Of a stretch of DNA of 64,000 nucleotides, positions 46,179 through 53,988 are shown piece after piece. Within the stretch, counting starts at the first letter, position 1; every line of letters begins with the position of its first letter. The translations under genes and the position numbers were made by a program. The notes beneath the pieces are model-generated. The model was given only the letters and a program-made list of their open reading frames with translations, was not told where the DNA came from and did no database searches. Source of the DNA: Isosphaeraceae bacterium EP7 (GTDB lineage Bacteria > Planctomycetota > Planctomycetia > Isosphaerales > Isosphaeraceae); contig CP151667.1 in NCBI GenBank assembly GCA_038400315.1, forward strand, positions 124,001 through 188,000, given 5' to 3'.

Positions 46179-47210
46179 ATGGCGATGATCACCGACGCGT
46201 CGCTGGATTTCGAGACCGAGGCCGAGGGCCTGGCCTTCGCCCGGGATGTCCTGCGTATCGAGGCTGAAGCACTCGGCCAGGTCCGCCTGCGGCTCGGTAC
46301 CTCGATCGTGCGGGCCGCCGAGCTGCTGTTCCGCTGCCGGGGCGCGGTGGCCGTGATGGGCATGGGCAAGGCGGGCCAGGTCGGCCAGAAGCTCGCCGCG
46401 ACGCTGGCGTCGACCGGCACGCGGGCCTACCCGCTGCATCCGGCCGAGGCGGTTCACGGCGACCTGGGCCGGGTTCGCGAGGGCGACGCGGTCATCGCGC
46501 TGTCGTCGAGCGGCGAGACCGAGGAGATCCTGCGACTCGTCCCCTCGCTCAGGCGGATCGGGGCGACCCTGGTGGCGATCACTCAGACGGCGACCAGCAG
46601 CCTGGGCCGCGCGGCCGATTTCTGCATCGCGATGGGGCCGATCGAGGAGGCTTGCCCGCTGGGCCTGGCCCCCACGGCGAGCACCACGGCGATGATGGCG
46701 GTCGGCGATGCCCTGGCCCTGCTGGTCAGTCGTCGCCGCGACTTCAGGGCCGAGGACTTCGCCGTCTACCACCCCGGCGGGAGCCTGGGGAGGCGTCTGG
46801 GTCGGGTCGAGGACCTGATGAGGACCGGGCCCCACGTCCGGTTGGCCAGCGGCGACGAGACGGTACGCGAGGTTTTCGTCAGGCTCGCCGGCCCGAGGCG
46901 CAGGACCGGGGCCGTGCTGGTGGTCGACGAGACCGAGCGGCTGTCGGGGATCTTCACCGACTCGGACCTGGCCCGGCTGTTCGAGCGTCGGCGCGAGGCC
47001 CTGCTCGACCGGCCGATGTCCGAGGTGATGACGCGCGACCCGGTGCGGGTGCAGGTGGGCGCGTCGGTCGCCGAGGCGGTCGAGGCACTCAAGGCACGCA
47101 AGATCAGCGAGCTGCCGGTGGTCGACCGGGGCGGGCGGCCCGTGGGTCTGCTCGACCTGACCGACCTGATCGGCCTGGTGCCCGCGGGCGCCGGGGGGGC
47201 CGACGTATGA
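46179..47210 (+). CDS. kdsD: Arabinose-5-phosphate isomerase (KpsF/GutQ family)
   Basis: Converts ribulose-5-phosphate to arabinose-5-phosphate, first step toward KDO for LPS. ATG 46179 (343 aa) has AAGGAGG seven bases upstream. SIS domain (about residues 30-175): VAVMGMGKAGQVGQKLAATLASTGTRA, HGDLGRVREGDAVIALSSSGETEEIL, and ACPLGLAPTASTTAMMAVGDALA. Two CBS domains follow (about 205-335), ending ARKISELPVVDRGGRPVGLLDLTDLI. Length is usual. Its stop overlaps the kdsC start (ATGA). The operon continues into the LptA-like gene, matching the role in KDO-LPS supply. Confidence 0.93.
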   Translation: MAMITDASLDFETEAEGLAFARDVLRIEAEALGQVRLRLGTSIVRAAELLFRCRGAVAVMGMGKAGQVGQKLAATLASTGTRAYPLHPAEAVHGDLGRVREGDAVIALSSSGETEEILRLVPSLRRIGATLVAITQTATSSLGRAADFCIAMGPIEEACPLGLAPTASTTAMMAVGDALALLVSRRRDFRAEDFAVYHPGGSLGRRLGRVEDLMRTGPHVRLASGDETVREVFVRLAGPRRRTGAVLVVDETERLSGIFTDSDLARLFERRREALLDRPMSEVMTRDPVRVQVGASVAEAVEALKARKISELPVVDRGGRPVGLLDLTDLIGLVPAGAGGADV

Positions 47211-47770
47211 CCGAGTTTCCCCCGGACTCCGACGAGCTGATGCGGAGGTGCGGCGGCATCGAGCTGCTGCTCCTGGATGTTGACGGCGTCTTGACCGACG
47301 GCGTCATCGCGGTGGACGACCGAGGGGTCGAGACCAAGCATTTTCATGTCCGCGACGGCTGGGCGATCGCCCGCTGGCGCGAGCTTGGTCATCGCGCGGC
47401 GATCCTCTCGGGCCGGAGGTCGGCCGCGGTCGACGTCCGCGCGGCCGAGCTGGGGATCAGCCCGGTGATCCAGGGGGCCGCGGAGAAGCGTGGGCCCTTC
47501 CTGGCCTTGCTTGCCGAGCTTGAATTGAGGCCCGACCAGGTCGCTTACATGGGGGACGACCTCCCCGACCTTCCGCTCCTGCGGTCGGTTGGCCTGGCGG
47601 CCTGCCCCTCGGACGCGGCGCCCGAAGTGGCGGAGTTCGCCCACGTCGTCACCCGTGCCGGCGGCGGCCGCGGGGCCGTCCGGGAACTGGTCGAGCTGAT
47701 CCTGACCCATCAAGGATCGTGGCACGAGCTGGTCGACCGCTGCCGGGCCCCGGCCATCGCCAGCGGCTAG
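47207..47770 (+). CDS. kdsC: KDO-8-phosphate phosphatase (HAD family)
   Basis: 187 aa; the start overlaps the kdsD stop by ATGA. HAD phosphatase: LLLLDVDGVLTDGVI (nucleophile Asp in DVDGV), AILSGRRSAAVD, and the third motif AYMGDDLPDLPLL with the Mg-binding Asp pair. KdsC removes phosphate from KDO-8-P. Short for HAD proteins, and without a cap domain, as the family is. Closely coupled with kdsD; then 135 bases to the LptA-like gene. Confidence 0.92.
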   Translation: MTEFPPDSDELMRRCGGIELLLLDVDGVLTDGVIAVDDRGVETKHFHVRDGWAIARWRELGHRAAILSGRRSAAVDVRAAELGISPVIQGAAEKRGPFLALLAELELRPDQVAYMGDDLPDLPLLRSVGLAACPSDAAPEVAEFAHVVTRAGGGRGAVRELVELILTHQGSWHELVDRCRAPAIASG

Positions 47771-47905
47771 GTTCTCTCTCGTGCGTGGGGTCTGTGCAAG
47801 TCAGGCCCGAGGTTCGCCGCAGTTGCTGTCGCCGTTGTTGCCGTCTTTTACGCCCGGCCCGACGCCGATCCTGGCCCCTGAAGCCCTCCGACGCGGGGAG
47901 CCGCC

Positions 47906-50900
47906 GTGTTCAAGAAAGCGTTCCAGGTCGCCGTCTCCTTCGCCCTGCTCTGCGGTGGGTACCTCGGCTATGCCGAGGTGTTCGCCGTCCTGGTGGCGCG
48001 AAGCCAGGCCAAGCTGACGCACGACACGCAGGCGAAACGGCCCCCAAAGGTCGAGAATGCCAGCCTGCGCGAGGCCACGCAGCTCGCCGGCAAGCATTTC
48101 GGGGCCGACCACTGGAGTGCCAGGCCGGACCTCCAGTACCGGTTCTATCACCACGATAAGGGCTACTGGTTCTACGCGGAGAATCTGGTACGGTCGGTTG
48201 ACGGCAAGACCCTGACGCTGAATCCGTTCGTTTCCATCTGGCGAGAGCCGGAGAAGGACGGCAAGAAGGACGGCAGGGCTGTCAAGACGATCTCCAGCAA
48301 GGAAGCGATCATCCAGATGGACCAGCCGATCGGGCTGGGCAAGGGGCCGGGCGGGGCCGAGAGCCGGATCGTCAACGTCCGGATCAACCATGACGTGCAG
48401 ATCCGCGACGACAAGGGGACGACCACCCCGAACGACGACCTGAAGATCGCCATGAACTCGGTCGAGTACGATGAAGGGGCGATGGAGATCAGGACCGACT
48501 CGGAAGTCGTCGTGCAGGACCGCGACTTCTGGATGACCGGCACCGGCCTGCGGATGCAGCTCTTCCCCAAGCCTGGCGGCGCGTCCGGCTTTCAGGGGGT
48601 GCGCACCGCCACGTTCAAGCATGACGTCCACATCATCATCAAGGACGTGGGCCGATCGGGCGTGCTTCCGGGCAAGGCGACGGCCGAGGCCACCGGCCGG
48701 ACTCCCCTGGACCTGACCAACGACGGCTCGATGGTCATCCTGTTCCCCAGGCCGGCGGCCAAGGTGATCATCGGGCCCCCCGAGGCCCCCCGGCCCACCA
48801 TCGCCGAGTTCGCCACCAATGTCCGCGTCCTGCGCGGGGCGACCAACCCCGACCAGCTCAATAGCGACTTCCTGCGCCTGATCTTGCTTCCGATCGACAA
48901 GGAAAAGGCGGCCGCCGAGCGGAAGGCCAAGCAGGCGGAGACCCTGGCCGCAGCGGGCCCGAAGTCTTCGGCACCGGCCCCCGTGCCGGTTGTGTTCGTG
49001 GCGAAGGCCGACGGCGCTTCGCCCGGCGAAGGCTCGGCCGAGGGCGTCGAAGCTGAAGCGAGCGGGCCGATGACCGAGCTCGGCCTGAAGGAGGCGATGG
49101 CCACCGGGCACGCGGTCTGGCTGCGGTCCCCCTCGCAGGGGGTCACCGGTCGCGGCAACCAGCTGATCTACAAGAATCTCTCTCCCGAGCGCCCGAACGA
49201 GACCTACTTCCGCGGCGACGCCGGCCGAGGCATGGAGATTGACAAGGTCGACCTGGCGGACGTCGACCCCAAGGCGCCCGCCGGCACGCCCAGGGCGGTG
49301 AAGTCGGTGACCAAGATCCGGGCGGTCGACGCGACGAACTACGACGCGGGCCCCGGGCCTCAGGGGGGCTCGGTGGTCATCGCCCGCGGCCCGGGAACCC
49401 TGGAGAGTCGCCCCGCGGCCACCCTGCCGGTCGAGCGATCGGCGGCCTGGCGCGATCAGCTCATCATGGAGACAACCGGCGTCGGGCTCGCGCAGCGACG
49501 CAAGATCACGCTGACCGACCACCCCAGGCTGTCGATGTCTCCCAAGCCGGGTGCCAAACCGGCCGTCGCGGCGGCCCAGGGCATCGTAGGCTCGATCGCG
49601 TCGCCGGTGTCGTCCGAGGGACCGACGATCCTCGACGCGGACAAGATGATCGTCGCCTATCTGAGTCCCAAGGCCCCCGCGGCCGCCCCGGGCACGGTCG
49701 CCGCTGCCCCCCGGGACGCGGCCTTGGTCCGCACCGCCGCGGGCCCTGCCCCCGTCGCCGAGTCGGTCGAGTCCGGAACCGTCAGGGTGACCGCACCGGC
49801 CACGGGGACCGACTCGATGAAGGTGGACAAGCTGCTGGCGCTGGAGAACGTGCATCTCCAGGCGCCCGGTAAGACGATGCGGGCCCGCGACCAGCTCGAC
49901 GTCGAGTTCGAGCAGGGCACTGTCCTGGAGAAGCCCGCCCCGGCGAAGGCTCCGGCCCCCGTCGTCGCAGCCCCTGCCGAGCCCGCGGCCCTGGCTGAAT
50001 TGCCGCCGCCGATGAACGCAGGGCCCGAGGTCACGCCGCCGGTGCACGTCTCGGCCAACCGAGTCTGGGCGAAGATCATCCAGGCGGCTGGAAAGGGCAA
50101 TGAGGGCGGCGATGTCCGCGAGGTCAGGCTCAGGGGCTCGGTGGCCTATCACCAGGACGCGGCTCCGACCAAGGAACGCGGCACCGACGTGACCGGCGAG
50201 GCGCTCGACCTGAACCGCGACGTGGCGGGCCTGGCCAAGCTGGTCGTCTTCCATCGCGACCCGTCCGGCGCGGCCCCCAAGGCGGCGGGCCGACCACTGG
50301 CTCCTGCGACCGGGGCCGCCGTCAAGGCGCCCGAACGCATGGCCCGCGTCGTCATGCCCGAGATGCAGGTCGAAGGGCCCGTCATCGGCCTCGACCAGGC
50401 GGCCGACCACTCCTGGGTGCGCGGGCCGGGTCTCCTGACCATGATGGCCGACCGCGCGGCCGCCGGATCGGACACCGGCCTGGGCGGCGGGTCCAAGAAC
50501 AAGGACAAGGACGGCTCGGCGAAGGCGACCGCATCGGTCAGGCCCTCGACGGTCAACGAGCTGGATCTTCCCCTGCTCAATCGCCGCCCCACGGCCGACC
50601 CCGAGGCCGCCGACCGGGTGCCGATGACGATCACCTGGGTCGACCGGATGGACTTCTACGGCCAGCCCGCGGGCGCCGACGGCCGGCCCGGCCCGGGCAA
50701 GATCAACTTCGTCGGCGGGGTGCGTGCCGCCTCGGACGAGGGCCTGATCAACAGCGACACCCTGGACGCCACCCTCGACGGGCCGATCGCCTTCAACCGT
50801 GCCGCCTCCGGGACCGCCACTCCGGGCGCGCCCAAGCCCCAGATCTCGCGGGTGCACCTCCGGGGCAAGGCTCTGGTCGTCAACTCGGAACGGAACCCGG

Positions 50901-51793
50901 TCACCGGCGAGGTCGACGAGAAGCAGCGCATCCTGAGCGAGGAAGTGATCTACGACCGTCTGAGCGGCTACTTCAACGCACCCGGCCCCGGCACCGTGTT
51001 CCTCTACAGCCGCAGTGATGCCCAGGACTCGACCGGCCTTGGCGGAATGTCGGATGTGGGCGGCATGGCCTCTCGGACCAAGCCTAGCATCACCAACGCT
51101 TCGAATTCAAACGCGGGCGCATCGACCAAGGGAGTTGCCGCGGCCGGGGCGAAGAGGCCGCTCAACTTGACGCAGATTTCCTTCCAGAATGGGATGTACG
51201 GCAAGTTCGGTTCCGGGCCGGCCTCCGACCCCCGCGGCGGGCCCCGTCAGGCCGAGTTCTTCAAGGATGTTGACGTGATGCACGCCGAGGTCCCCAGCGT
51301 TGACGTCATCCTCAACCCCGACCGCCCCCCGCGCAAGTTCGTCACCCTCACGTCGCAGTCGCTCAGGGTCATCAGCGAGCCCTCCCGCAAGCCAGGCGGC
51401 CGGGCCAGGAACCTGCTCGACGCCTGGGATGAAGCCTACGCACGGACCGAGAACTCGACGATCCAGGCCGACCGGATCCGGTATGACTCGGCCACCGAGC
51501 TGTTCAACGCCTACGCGTTCAGCGGCCGAGACGTGGTGATGTCGCAGCAGACGATCGTCGGTCAGCCGCCGACGCAGGCCGTGGGCCGTGGCATCATCTT
51601 CAACCGCCTGACGGGCGAGCGAGAGCTGATCGAGCCGCAGACGGTGCAGCTCCTGAACCAGAAGCAAGGGGCCCGCCCGACTCCGCTGCCGCCCCCCTCC
51701 GACAAGCCCGCCCCCAAGGACAGACGCAAGGGCTTCGCCCCGCCGCAGCAGAACAACAAGGAACGCCGAGGGTTCTCCGGCGGCCGGTTCTGA
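47906..51793 (+). CDS. Giant membrane-anchored LptC/LptA-like (OstA-type) protein
   Basis: 1295 aa. One N-terminal anchor (residues 5-29, FQVAVSFALLCGGYLGYAEVFA) and a large periplasmic part. Beta-rich segments with alternating hydrophobic residues, such as LNPFVSIWREP, ATFKHDVHIIIKDVG, INFVGGVRAASDEGLINSD and ADRIRYDSATELFNAYAFSGRDVVMSQQ, resemble the OstA/LptA jellyroll repeats of LPS transport. Ala/Pro/Lys-rich linkers (about 330-385 and 580-690) separate blocks. Context supports this: E. coli has the order kdsD-kdsC-lptC-lptA, and here the same two kds genes lead straight into this protein. Inference: a single protein replaces and expands LptC and LptA. Followed by a perfect terminator. 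Confidence 0.72.
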   Translation: MFKKAFQVAVSFALLCGGYLGYAEVFAVLVARSQAKLTHDTQAKRPPKVENASLREATQLAGKHFGADHWSARPDLQYRFYHHDKGYWFYAENLVRSVDGKTLTLNPFVSIWREPEKDGKKDGRAVKTISSKEAIIQMDQPIGLGKGPGGAESRIVNVRINHDVQIRDDKGTTTPNDDLKIAMNSVEYDEGAMEIRTDSEVVVQDRDFWMTGTGLRMQLFPKPGGASGFQGVRTATFKHDVHIIIKDVGRSGVLPGKATAEATGRTPLDLTNDGSMVILFPRPAAKVIIGPPEAPRPTIAEFATNVRVLRGATNPDQLNSDFLRLILLPIDKEKAAAERKAKQAETLAAAGPKSSAPAPVPVVFVAKADGASPGEGSAEGVEAEASGPMTELGLKEAMATGHAVWLRSPSQGVTGRGNQLIYKNLSPERPNETYFRGDAGRGMEIDKVDLADVDPKAPAGTPRAVKSVTKIRAVDATNYDAGPGPQGGSVVIARGPGTLESRPAATLPVERSAAWRDQLIMETTGVGLAQRRKITLTDHPRLSMSPKPGAKPAVAAAQGIVGSIASPVSSEGPTILDADKMIVAYLSPKAPAAAPGTVAAAPRDAALVRTAAGPAPVAESVESGTVRVTAPATGTDSMKVDKLLALENVHLQAPGKTMRARDQLDVEFEQGTVLEKPAPAKAPAPVVAAPAEPAALAELPPPMNAGPEVTPPVHVSANRVWAKIIQAAGKGNEGGDVREVRLRGSVAYHQDAAPTKERGTDVTGEALDLNRDVAGLAKLVVFHRDPSGAAPKAAGRPLAPATGAAVKAPERMARVVMPEMQVEGPVIGLDQAADHSWVRGPGLLTMMADRAAAGSDTGLGGGSKNKDKDGSAKATASVRPSTVNELDLPLLNRRPTADPEAADRVPMTITWVDRMDFYGQPAGADGRPGPGKINFVGGVRAASDEGLINSDTLDATLDGPIAFNRAASGTATPGAPKPQISRVHLRGKALVVNSERNPVTGEVDEKQRILSEEVIYDRLSGYFNAPGPGTVFLYSRSDAQDSTGLGGMSDVGGMASRTKPSITNASNSNAGASTKGVAAAGAKRPLNLTQISFQNGMYGKFGSGPASDPRGGPRQAEFFKDVDVMHAEVPSVDVILNPDRPPRKFVTLTSQSLRVISEPSRKPGGRARNLLDAWDEAYARTENSTIQADRIRYDSATELFNAYAFSGRDVVMSQQTIVGQPPTQAVGRGIIFNRLTGERELIEPQTVQLLNQKQGARPTPLPPPSDKPAPKDRRKGFAPPQQNNKERRGFSGGRF

Positions 51794-51999: not shown

Positions 52000-53127
52000 T
52001 CAGTAGACCTCGCCGGCGCGGACGACGTGGCCACCGGTGCCGCCGGCGGCGGAGGCCCAGGGGGCGTAGCGGGCGTGCCAGCCTTCGGCGGCGCGGATGC
52101 CGAGGAAGTCGTCCTTGGCCAGGCCGTACTTGGCCCACCAGGGGGAGCCGTGCTCGATGACGACCTTGGCGACCTCGGAGACGCGGTTGAAGCCGGTCTC
52201 GGCGGCGAACTTGCTTCGGCCTTCGGCGCCGTCCTGGAGGAAGTATTCCTTCCAGAAGGCACGGCCGCCGAGCACGCCGGAGCAGCCGCTTTCCATGGCC
52301 ATGTGCACCTGCTTGAGGTACTGGTCATAGTCGACGCCGGCGGAGAGGAGCACCCAGGGGCGCTCGCTAGCTTCGCTCAGGGCGTGAAGGTTGTCGGCGA
52401 GCTGGTCGTCGGACTCGTGCCCCAGGGTGCCGGGGAACTCGGCCTTGTAGACGTCGCAGAAGCGGCTGAGCTGGCGGGCCGCCTCGATGGTGGTCTCGGC
52501 CTTGCGGTCGAAGTAGGTCTTGTCGGTCTTCTTCTCGGTGCCGTAGTTGAAGGAGACCGGCTCGAGCAGGAAGAGGATGTCGTACTTCTTGCACTCTTCG
52601 TAGACGTGCTGGATGAAGGCGAACTGGTGCTCGGCGGAGATCAGCTCGCCGGGCTCGAACGGGGCGAGCAGCTTGACGGCGTCGGCGCCCATCAGCTTGA
52701 TCTTCTCGACCGACCAGCCGGCCTCGATCTCGCCCATCGGGCCGCCGAGCTTGTTCTTGGGGCTGCCGGACTTCTCGACGCGGACGAGCAGGCCCTTGTC
52801 GGCCGGCGCGGCGCCGGTGGCGATGGCCGGCCAGGCGCCGTAGTAGCTGTCGATGAGGATGCCCGAGGCGGCCGGGGCCATGTGCCGCATCATGTCGAGC
52901 TTGGCGTCGACGACCTCTTCGTAGGTCGGCTCGCGATCCTGGCCCTTGCCCTTGAGGGCCTTGGCGGCCATCTCGATCATCGAGCTGTTCTGGTCGAGGG
53001 CCAGCATGGTCAGCGTGCCGTTGGGGTTGCTGATCCGTTGCAGGCCGCGGAGCTTGCCGGGGGTCAGTCCCTTGCCGAGCAGTGCGGTCGCGCCCAGGAG
53101 GCGCGGGGTGGTGGCGGCGACAGCCAT
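52000..53127 (-). CDS. Class I aldolase, LacD (tagatose-1,6-bisphosphate aldolase)-like
   Basis: 375 aa from ATG 53127. TIM-barrel aldolase of the LacD/FbaB/DeoC type: TLTMLALDQNSSM at strand 1, ATGAAPADKGLLVRVEKSG, MGADAVKLLAPFEPGE (with the Schiff-base-type Lys region), ILFLLEPVSFNYG, DVYKAEFPGTL and WVLLSAGVDYDQYLKQVHMAMESGCSGVLGGRAFWKEYF. Related proteins act on tagatose-1,6-bisphosphate or similar sugar phosphates; the true substrate in planctomycetes is unknown. The upstream frame (to 53202) lacks support. Single gene; GGGAG lies 11 bases before the ATG. Confidence 0.8.
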   Translation of the reverse strand: MAVAATTPRLLGATALLGKGLTPGKLRGLQRISNPNGTLTMLALDQNSSMIEMAAKALKGKGQDREPTYEEVVDAKLDMMRHMAPAASGILIDSYYGAWPAIATGAAPADKGLLVRVEKSGSPKNKLGGPMGEIEAGWSVEKIKLMGADAVKLLAPFEPGELISAEHQFAFIQHVYEECKKYDILFLLEPVSFNYGTEKKTDKTYFDRKAETTIEAARQLSRFCDVYKAEFPGTLGHESDDQLADNLHALSEASERPWVLLSAGVDYDQYLKQVHMAMESGCSGVLGGRAFWKEYFLQDGAEGRSKFAAETGFNRVSEVAKVVIEHGSPWWAKYGLAKDDFLGIRAAEGWHARYAPWASAAGGTGGHVVRAGEVY

Positions 53128-53988
53128 CGCTAGCAAGACTCCCAGATCAAAAAGGGGAAAGAAAGGACGCGCCCGGGGGGCCGACTCGGGTCGGCCGGCC
53201 AACCGAGGAGGAGAATTCCAGCTCGGGCGAGAAACCCGGACAGGGCGGTGGATCGGCCGCGGCCGTCCGCCGACTTCGCGCGGCGAGGGGGGCCGCGTGA
53301 GGGTGATTTGCGACGTCTGAGGACGGCCTGCGCAGGCCGATGATCGGGACTGGTCGCGGGCGATCAGCCGGGCCCGAAGGCCCGAATGGACCCGATTGAG
53401 AGGGGGTCCGACCTCGGCCGGATTCGATTGTAACGACCTAGATTCCGGACCGCAATCCTCCGCGGGAGCCCGGTGCGAGGCCGCCCGGCCGCCTCTGCGG
53501 GCGCATTCCGCGCGAAATCGTTGAGGAGCGGGCCACGCCCGGGCCGATAAAGAGGTTGTCCGGCAGGGATTCCGGACGCGTCAGGGAAGGCGTTTGGTGG
53601 CACCGCGTCAACGGTCGCGTCCAGGGACGGATCGTCGCCCAGCGGGCCGCACGGGCCATGGATTCGGCCCAATCGTGAGATCAAAGCGACGTCCCGCGTG
53701 GGGAGTCGTCGACGTCGGCCGGGGGCCTTCAAACGCCCCGGGTCCGGTCTTCGGCCGCTCCCGTCACCTCCGGACGTCGCGGTCGGCCGCCGCCCCGTTG
53801 CCGGTCCTCGTTCGGCGAGGCCCATCATCCAGGGGCGGCGGCCGTACTCTTTTCGAACGCCCGGCCAGGTTGGCCGGAATTCCCGGGCATGCCTGGAATC
53901 TTCACGGAAGGTGCGGCAACGTGTCGCCTTGACGCCCGGGCCTTCGCGTCTGGCGCGGGCGGCATCATGCCCTTCCTGGAGAGCGACG
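53128..53988. other. Long intergenic region, no gene supported
   Basis: 861 bases between the aldolase gene and the phosphodiesterase gene. Open frames exist on both strands but are Arg/Gly/Pro-rich without ribosome sites. Could hold regulatory DNA or an RNA gene; nothing recognised. Confidence 0.4.

Follow-up and report, generated by a model that had tools for sequence, protein, structure and literature searches.

In Escherichia coli the genes kdsD-kdsC-lptC-lptA-lptB follow one another in this order, and LptC (YrbK) has about 190 amino acids. The jellyrolls of E. coli LptC, LptA and LptD are described as standing head to tail and forming one unbroken groove that accommodates lipid A; LptA (YhbN) is free in the periplasm and can oligomerise, its stoichiometry within cells being uncertain, and a single LptA reportedly suffices to bridge a gap of 100 Å (PMC6164715). 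For planctomycetes, a 2012 study reported LptD in all published genomes searched, LptA and LptC going unmentioned in its main text (PMC3422733), the Lpt system was judged largely reduced in a survey of 2022 (PMC8871954), and almost all lipid A genes (lpxABCDKL) are essential in Planctopirus limnophila (PMC10632474). Here we analyse a stretch of 64,000 nucleotides from Isosphaeraceae bacterium EP7 (the window), in which kdsD and kdsC are followed by a gene for a protein of 1295 amino acids, called the giant below. This protein is very probably a natural LptC-LptA fusion, that is, a one-chain LptC-LptA(n) bridge for the export of lipopolysaccharide (LPS) that would replace separate LptC and LptA. 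No description of a fused or multi-unit LptC/LptA in planctomycetes was found among the titles and abstract openings that headed searches of the open-access literature.

The features of the locus are as follows, in window coordinates.

46179..47210, + strand: kdsD, arabinose-5-phosphate isomerase with one SIS and two CBS domains (Pfam SIS and CBS; TIGR00393).
47207..47770, + strand: kdsC, Kdo-8-phosphate phosphatase (TIGR01670; ATGA overlap with kdsD).
47906..51793, + strand: gene of the giant, a long LptC-LptA-type protein of 1295 amino acids with a GTG start (open reading frame, NCBIfam, homologues, AlphaFold model).
47918..47995, + strand: predicted N-terminal membrane anchor, about residues 5-30 (hydropathy; outside the modelled stretch).
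48137..48640, + strand: LptC-like beta-jellyroll, about residues 78-245 (model strands; TIGR04409 and PF06835 below their cut-offs; alignment to the protein of locus L165; LptC match of a homologue).
48710..50914, + strand: run of LptA-like jellyrolls joined by disordered linkers rich in Pro and Ala, about residues 269-1003 (internal repeats, L165 alignment, low-confidence linkers in the model).
50915..51556, + strand: C-terminal LptA-like jellyroll with a disordered insert, about residues 1004-1217 (VIA-align to LptA 2r1a_E).
51557..51790, + strand: basic tail at the C terminus, ending in a conserved ER-x-GF (alignment A1).

An earlier note on this DNA had read it as an ATGA-coupled kdsD/kdsC pair followed by an anchored, beta-rich protein of 1295 residues, and the open reading frames, family matches, hydropathy and structural model all agree with that reading. 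The kdsD frame runs from ATG 46179 to TGA 47210 (343 amino acids), and its product matches the KpsF/GutQ model TIGR00393 above cut-off (263.7 versus 203.7 bits); its top score, 289 bits, is to the KdsD model, under that model's cut-off of 505. From its ATG at 47207, within the ATGA shared with the 3′ end of kdsD, kdsC extends to 47770 (187 amino acids), and its product matches the KdsC phosphatase model TIGR01670 at 145.6 bits (cut-off 106.95). The GTG of the giant gene at 47906 lies 135 bases downstream of kdsC. A single hydrophobic segment is found in the giant, at the N terminus, where the Kyte-Doolittle value over 19 residues reaches a maximum of 1.79 from residue 12; the strongest value beyond residue 60 is 1.06, and the model of a homologue from Blastopirellula has a helix at residues 2-30. 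A single N-terminal transmembrane anchor is thus predicted, as in LptC, with which the giant shares the membrane helix, the periplasmic jellyroll and the kdsC neighbour, although it is about seven times as long as E. coli LptC and carries LptA-type units in the same chain. At the other end, E1286 and R1287 are at least 90% conserved in alignment A1.

AlphaFold models were obtained for residues 36-1235 of the window protein (37 homologues aligned; mean predicted local distance difference test score, pLDDT, 76.6; predicted template modelling score, pTM, 0.62) and for the whole Blastopirellula homologue of 1002 amino acids (44 homologues aligned; 82.2 and 0.66), and both are mainly beta. With VIA-align, the C-terminal domain of the window protein superposes on LptA 2r1a_E (Z 13.1, root mean square deviation 2.3, 129 of 132 residues) and that of the homologue on LptA 4uu4 (Z 13.0, deviation 1.9, 122 residues). 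Residues 78-236 of the homologue superpose on LptC (Z 10.0, deviation 2.4, 122 of 125 residues), which suggests a periplasmic beta-jellyroll like those of PDB entries 3my2 and 4b54. In both models LptD, LptA and LptC top the VIA-align ranking, the best non-Lpt entry reaching Z 8.3 for Blastopirellula and 8.8 for the window protein. Foldseek also places LptD entries first for both models, with single LptA and LptC chains lower, among unrelated large proteins (LptC 4b54_B at E 8.5e-4 for the window model); teneurins, Tc toxin, DDB1, Tse5 and spliceosome parts reached E≤0.001 at low probability and were given no weight. The check for a jellyroll fold that the earlier note had proposed thus returned an Lpt-type beta-jellyroll, LptA being matched at the C terminus of both models and LptC at the N terminus of one.

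The same note had called the giant several times longer than LptA and LptC together. The length stands, but the 1295 amino acids are partly disordered linker: 830 of the 1200 modelled residues of the window protein have a pLDDT of at least 70, versus 791 of 1002 in the Blastopirellula homologue, and the extra length is mostly low-confidence linker. For this reason we rejected the idea that 1295 amino acids mean more units than in other planctomycetes.

Profile searches point in the same direction as the models. Profile A1 was made from the window protein together with 19 members of its family, and profile A4, for the class Planctomycetia, from 45 homologues scoring at most 209 bits with A1. 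Among 177,635 PDB sequences, A4 has eight matches at E≤10, every one of them LptA (best E 0.0048), in agreement with the OstA-type jellyroll seen in both models; a further profile, A3, has three, with LptA best at 0.029 and the other two unrelated. When segments of A4 were compared with the rest of A4, 14 matches reached a probability of at least 80% (the segments overlap, and one pair may count from both sides), and none did in one reversed and five shuffled control runs. Because of these internal matches, absent from the controls, we consider the giant to be built of homologous units. The repeats that the earlier note expected are therefore present, and their number depends on the method. 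Strands counted by hand, 53 in the Blastopirellula model and 58 in the window model, correspond to about 3.3-3.6 jellyrolls, taking 16 strands for each (PMC6164715), whereas the repeat matches judged by eye give an LptC unit and about five homologous units.

Linking forms occur in more distant planctomycetes. In a sample of 119 genomes of the phylum, 22 match A4 at 1e-6. The match is strong in the six that belong to the class and weak in the other sixteen; ten of these sixteen were chosen for study of the locus, and eight of the ten (not L160 and L166) were scanned with Pfam and NCBIfam. Eight of the ten loci have an upstream kdsC homologue in the same orientation, no more than 0.5 kilobases (kb) away or overlapping as called; none was seen by BLAST at L161 and L164. 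The giant-like proteins range from 343 to 1182 amino acids as called. At L165, kdsD-kdsC is followed by a protein of 660 amino acids that exceeds the curated cut-offs for both LptC (72.8 against 38 for TIGR04409; 64.8 against 21 for PF06835) and LptA (80.9 against 71.7 for TIGR03002; 82.3 against 20.4 for PF03968). At L167, the protein encoded after kdsC has 343 amino acids; its second half exceeds the PF03968 cut-off, and its first half has an LptC match below cut-off. The L164 protein also passes PF03968, and those of L162 and L158 pass PF06835; at L163, L161 and L159 no Lpt cut-off was passed in the Pfam and NCBIfam scan. The gene after the long protein encodes LptD at L162 and L163 (PF04453 above cut-off). 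In a comparison of the giant with L165/L166, residues 157-219 pair with the LptC domain at a probability of 78% using A3 and 21% using A4, and later units pair with the LptA domain at 93% using A4 and 73% using A3 (residues 269-446); a reversed-profile control gave nothing at 20% or above. Across the phylum, lengths of 343, about 660, about 1000 and as many as 1539 amino acids occur, the longest partly through linkers.

Within the class, the giant and its position are conserved. In a protein search of whole genomes, 43 of the 45 from its own family had a match, and A4 matches 78 of 79 sampled class genomes, the only miss being G014 (both counts include the window's own genome; some of the A4 matches are partial). 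Among 19 relatives with flanking sequence, a hand-chosen subset of the genomes carrying the giant, kdsD precedes the giant on the same strand in all, and kdsC lies in between in 16 (not found there in L044, L050 and L056). We also collected 80 named loci by KdsD similarity, from an alignment of KdsD, and searched them with A1: the giant follows kdsD in 74, and five of the others (L080, L089, L090, L130, L131) extend at most 739 bases beyond kdsD. Between kdsD and the giant, kdsC is present in 52 of the 74 loci by a strict rule and in three more by inspection, where a long reading-frame call masks it; in 18 of the 19 loci without it the giant begins at most 146 bases from kdsD. The suggestion that homologues always sit next to kdsC consequently did not hold, and adjacency to kdsD is nearly constant. 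Uncut giants, with starts as called, measure 1182-1539 amino acids in the 19 proteins whose A1 score is above 800 bits, whereas 35 others have 958-1182. Members occur in Singulisphaera sp. GP187, Aquisphaera insulae, Paludisphaera soli, Tautonia sociabilis, Blastopirellula marina DSM 3645 and two Botrimarina species. On two contigs (L087 and L095) whose records name Candidatus Kuenenia stuttgartiensis, the giant is Isosphaeraceae-like (A1 scores of 993 and 747 bits, L095 being cut at the contig end), and these record names may be wrong.

A structural or adhesion role for the giant, as a beta repeat protein placed near kdsD and kdsC by chance, is suggested by its large size, its Pro/Ala-rich linkers and its lack of a Pfam family (nothing at E≤1, thus no TamB or AsmA domain either), but it is hardly credible in view of the class-wide conservation, the conserved position and the Lpt fold. 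A jellyroll bridge for some other lipid, such as a phospholipid, a hopanoid or another glycolipid, is another alternative: the shared fold does not fix the cargo, and LPD-3, which we take to be a eukaryotic bridge-like lipid transfer protein, has its complex among the Foldseek matches of both models. We nevertheless regard this as quite improbable, given that the adjoining gene in those 74 of 80 loci, kdsD, is a Kdo gene, that LptD adjoins the long protein in two of the ten distant genomes, and that Lpt proteins head the VIA-align rows. An LPS bridge therefore remains the reading that we prefer.

The genome of the window encodes the other parts of such a system. LptB is represented by one TIGR04406 match above cut-off, and LptF and LptG by genes in tandem, about 3 kb upstream of which a lipid A acyltransferase is encoded. 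A divergent LptD is encoded elsewhere.

L003:7600-11625, - strand: divergent LptD, 1341 amino acids as called, start uncertain (sub-cut-off PF04453, BLAST).

Its PF04453 match (E 0.005) is below cut-off, and BLAST relates it to the PF04453-positive proteins of L163 (E 2e-23) and L162 (E 2e-26); Pfam and NCBIfam scans of the protein were empty, and phmmer against PDB gave nothing useful. Its N-terminal jellyroll would share the OstA-type fold with the giant, which itself shows no outer-membrane barrel. In ten loci inspected by eye, no lptB was recognised downstream of the giant (these reading frames were not scanned) and the downstream genes vary, and we dropped the idea of an operon of the giant with lptB. 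A reading frame that we take to be glgC-like lies downstream in L059, L112 and L117.

The earlier note had also proposed to check whether separate lptA and lptC are missing from the genome, and the Pfam results favour its reading. No separate LptC exceeds the PF06835 cut-off in the 79 class genomes, and one weak match (G047) falls within the giant, at about residues 163-220 from the match start; in the window's genome only the giant and LptD match, both below cut-off. PF03968, the LptA/LptD N-terminal domain, is above cut-off in 16 of the 79 genomes, and in 15 of these the match lies within the giant itself, in the N-terminal third, the middle or the C terminus (coordinates compared by hand); two matches under cut-off occur in G182, where the frame resembles LptD by eye, and in G194. 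In the window's genome PF03968 finds no separate LptA even at E≤10, the model being blind to the giant's own units too.

Several observations weigh against our interpretation. Two of the 45 family genomes (G014, G026) have no match to the giant, 97 of the 113 sampled phylum genomes outside the class have no A4 match, and at L132 the 2.4 kb after kdsD contain no giant. No kdsC was found at the expected place in 19 of 74 loci, and an N-terminal hydrophobic stretch (first 90 residues, simple hydropathy threshold) was seen in only 50 of 74, partly a matter of start calls. The window model aligns best to LptC with its C-terminal unit (Z 10.5), and the evidence for an LptC-type N terminus in the window protein thus comes from its sequence and from the homologue; Foldseek matches of the whole chain to LptD are weak, with template modelling scores of 0.10-0.18 by query length, and fold does not prove cargo. 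Finally, the giant is below the curated cut-offs for LptC (TIGR04409, PF06835) and LptA (PF03968, TIGR03002). Its sole NCBIfam match is a sub-threshold one to TIGR04409 (E 2.8e-4, 20.4 bits against 38, residues 158-219), and PF06835 scores 11.5 bits against 21 at 48383-48562. Because it passes neither cut-off and, with its predicted anchor, is not a free soluble periplasmic protein as LptA is, it is not a canonical member of either family. We consider it a bridge protein for LPS within the OstA jellyroll superfamily, with the architecture of an LptC-LptA fusion.

The strongest alternative is that the giant is only an enlarged LptC, and that a separate, very divergent and Pfam-invisible LptA completes the bridge. 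PF03968 sees units of the giant in only 15 of 78 class genomes, and a divergent separate LptA could escape it; the silence of Pfam on this point is weak evidence, since Pfam misses most units within the giant. Moreover, G177 encodes a separate protein of 421 amino acids (L157:7111-8376, - strand) whose middle is rich in proline and whose C terminus carries an OstA/LptA domain; it is the only above-cut-off PF03968 match outside the giant in the 79 genomes. However, the C-terminal domain of the giant is itself LptA-like in two models, the linking forms join LptC and LptA domains in one chain, and a separate candidate above cut-off exists in only that one genome of 79. An enlarged LptC with a hidden partner is, in our judgement, unlikely, and the fusion fits the evidence better. 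The proposal that one expanded protein serves as the periplasmic LPS bridge thus draws support from fold, from synteny and, more weakly, from the lack of a separate LptC or LptA visible to Pfam in the window's genome.

If the giant is such a bridge, an LptC-type jellyroll anchored in the inner membrane would be followed by several LptA-type jellyrolls in one chain. LPS would be taken over from LptB2FG, lipid A would pass along a continuous groove of the giant, and the C-terminal LptA-type unit would dock onto the N-terminal jellyroll of LptD, presumably with no separate LptA taking part. The arrangement would resemble an oligomer of LptA, with jellyrolls in series, except that the units are covalently joined and anchored to the membrane, whereas E. 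coli LptA is free. A reach beyond LptC and one LptA would fit the enlarged and variable periplasm described for Planctopirus limnophila (PMC5394234). The Mla bridge of Veillonella parvula shares with the giant the idea of an ancestral lipid bridge across a diderm envelope, but carries phospholipid traffic rather than the LPS proposed here (PMC10665443). The fold also differs, Mla proteins being of the MCE type.

In at least two Singulisphaera-type genomes of one genus (G038 and G037), the N-terminal part of the giant also occurs fused to an extracytoplasmic function (ECF) sigma factor (Sigma70_r2, r4_2) and a hydrophobic segment, at L155:5357-7747 (- strand) and L156:4342-6057 (+ strand). The fused portion comprises the LptC-like and first LptA-like parts in L155 and about the LptC-like part in L156, with A1 matching at E 1e-139 and 5e-74, respectively. 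Such a fusion could be a candidate sensor of the LPS bridge. As a separate observation, a LacD/DeoC-type aldolase gene (window 52000-53202, - strand) is convergent with the giant gene, and tblastn finds an aldolase homologue downstream of the giant in 11 of the 19 relatives; it is 1.9 kb off in L043, and that of L047 is cut and lies 5 kb from the giant.

A broader scenario, which we put forward tentatively and with somewhat more doubt than belief, is that in planctomycetes one covalent chain of fixed length replaced a self-assembling LptC-LptA bridge, with the number of units evolving as a molecular ruler for a variable periplasm and the sigma-fused LptC-like copy perhaps sensing the bridge. 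A single fused protein, if true, would fill the missing LptC/LptA part of the planctomycete Lpt system. It would also offer a natural system in which to ask how many units the LPS bridge needs, whether such a bridge has to assemble and come apart, and whether its length follows that of the periplasm.

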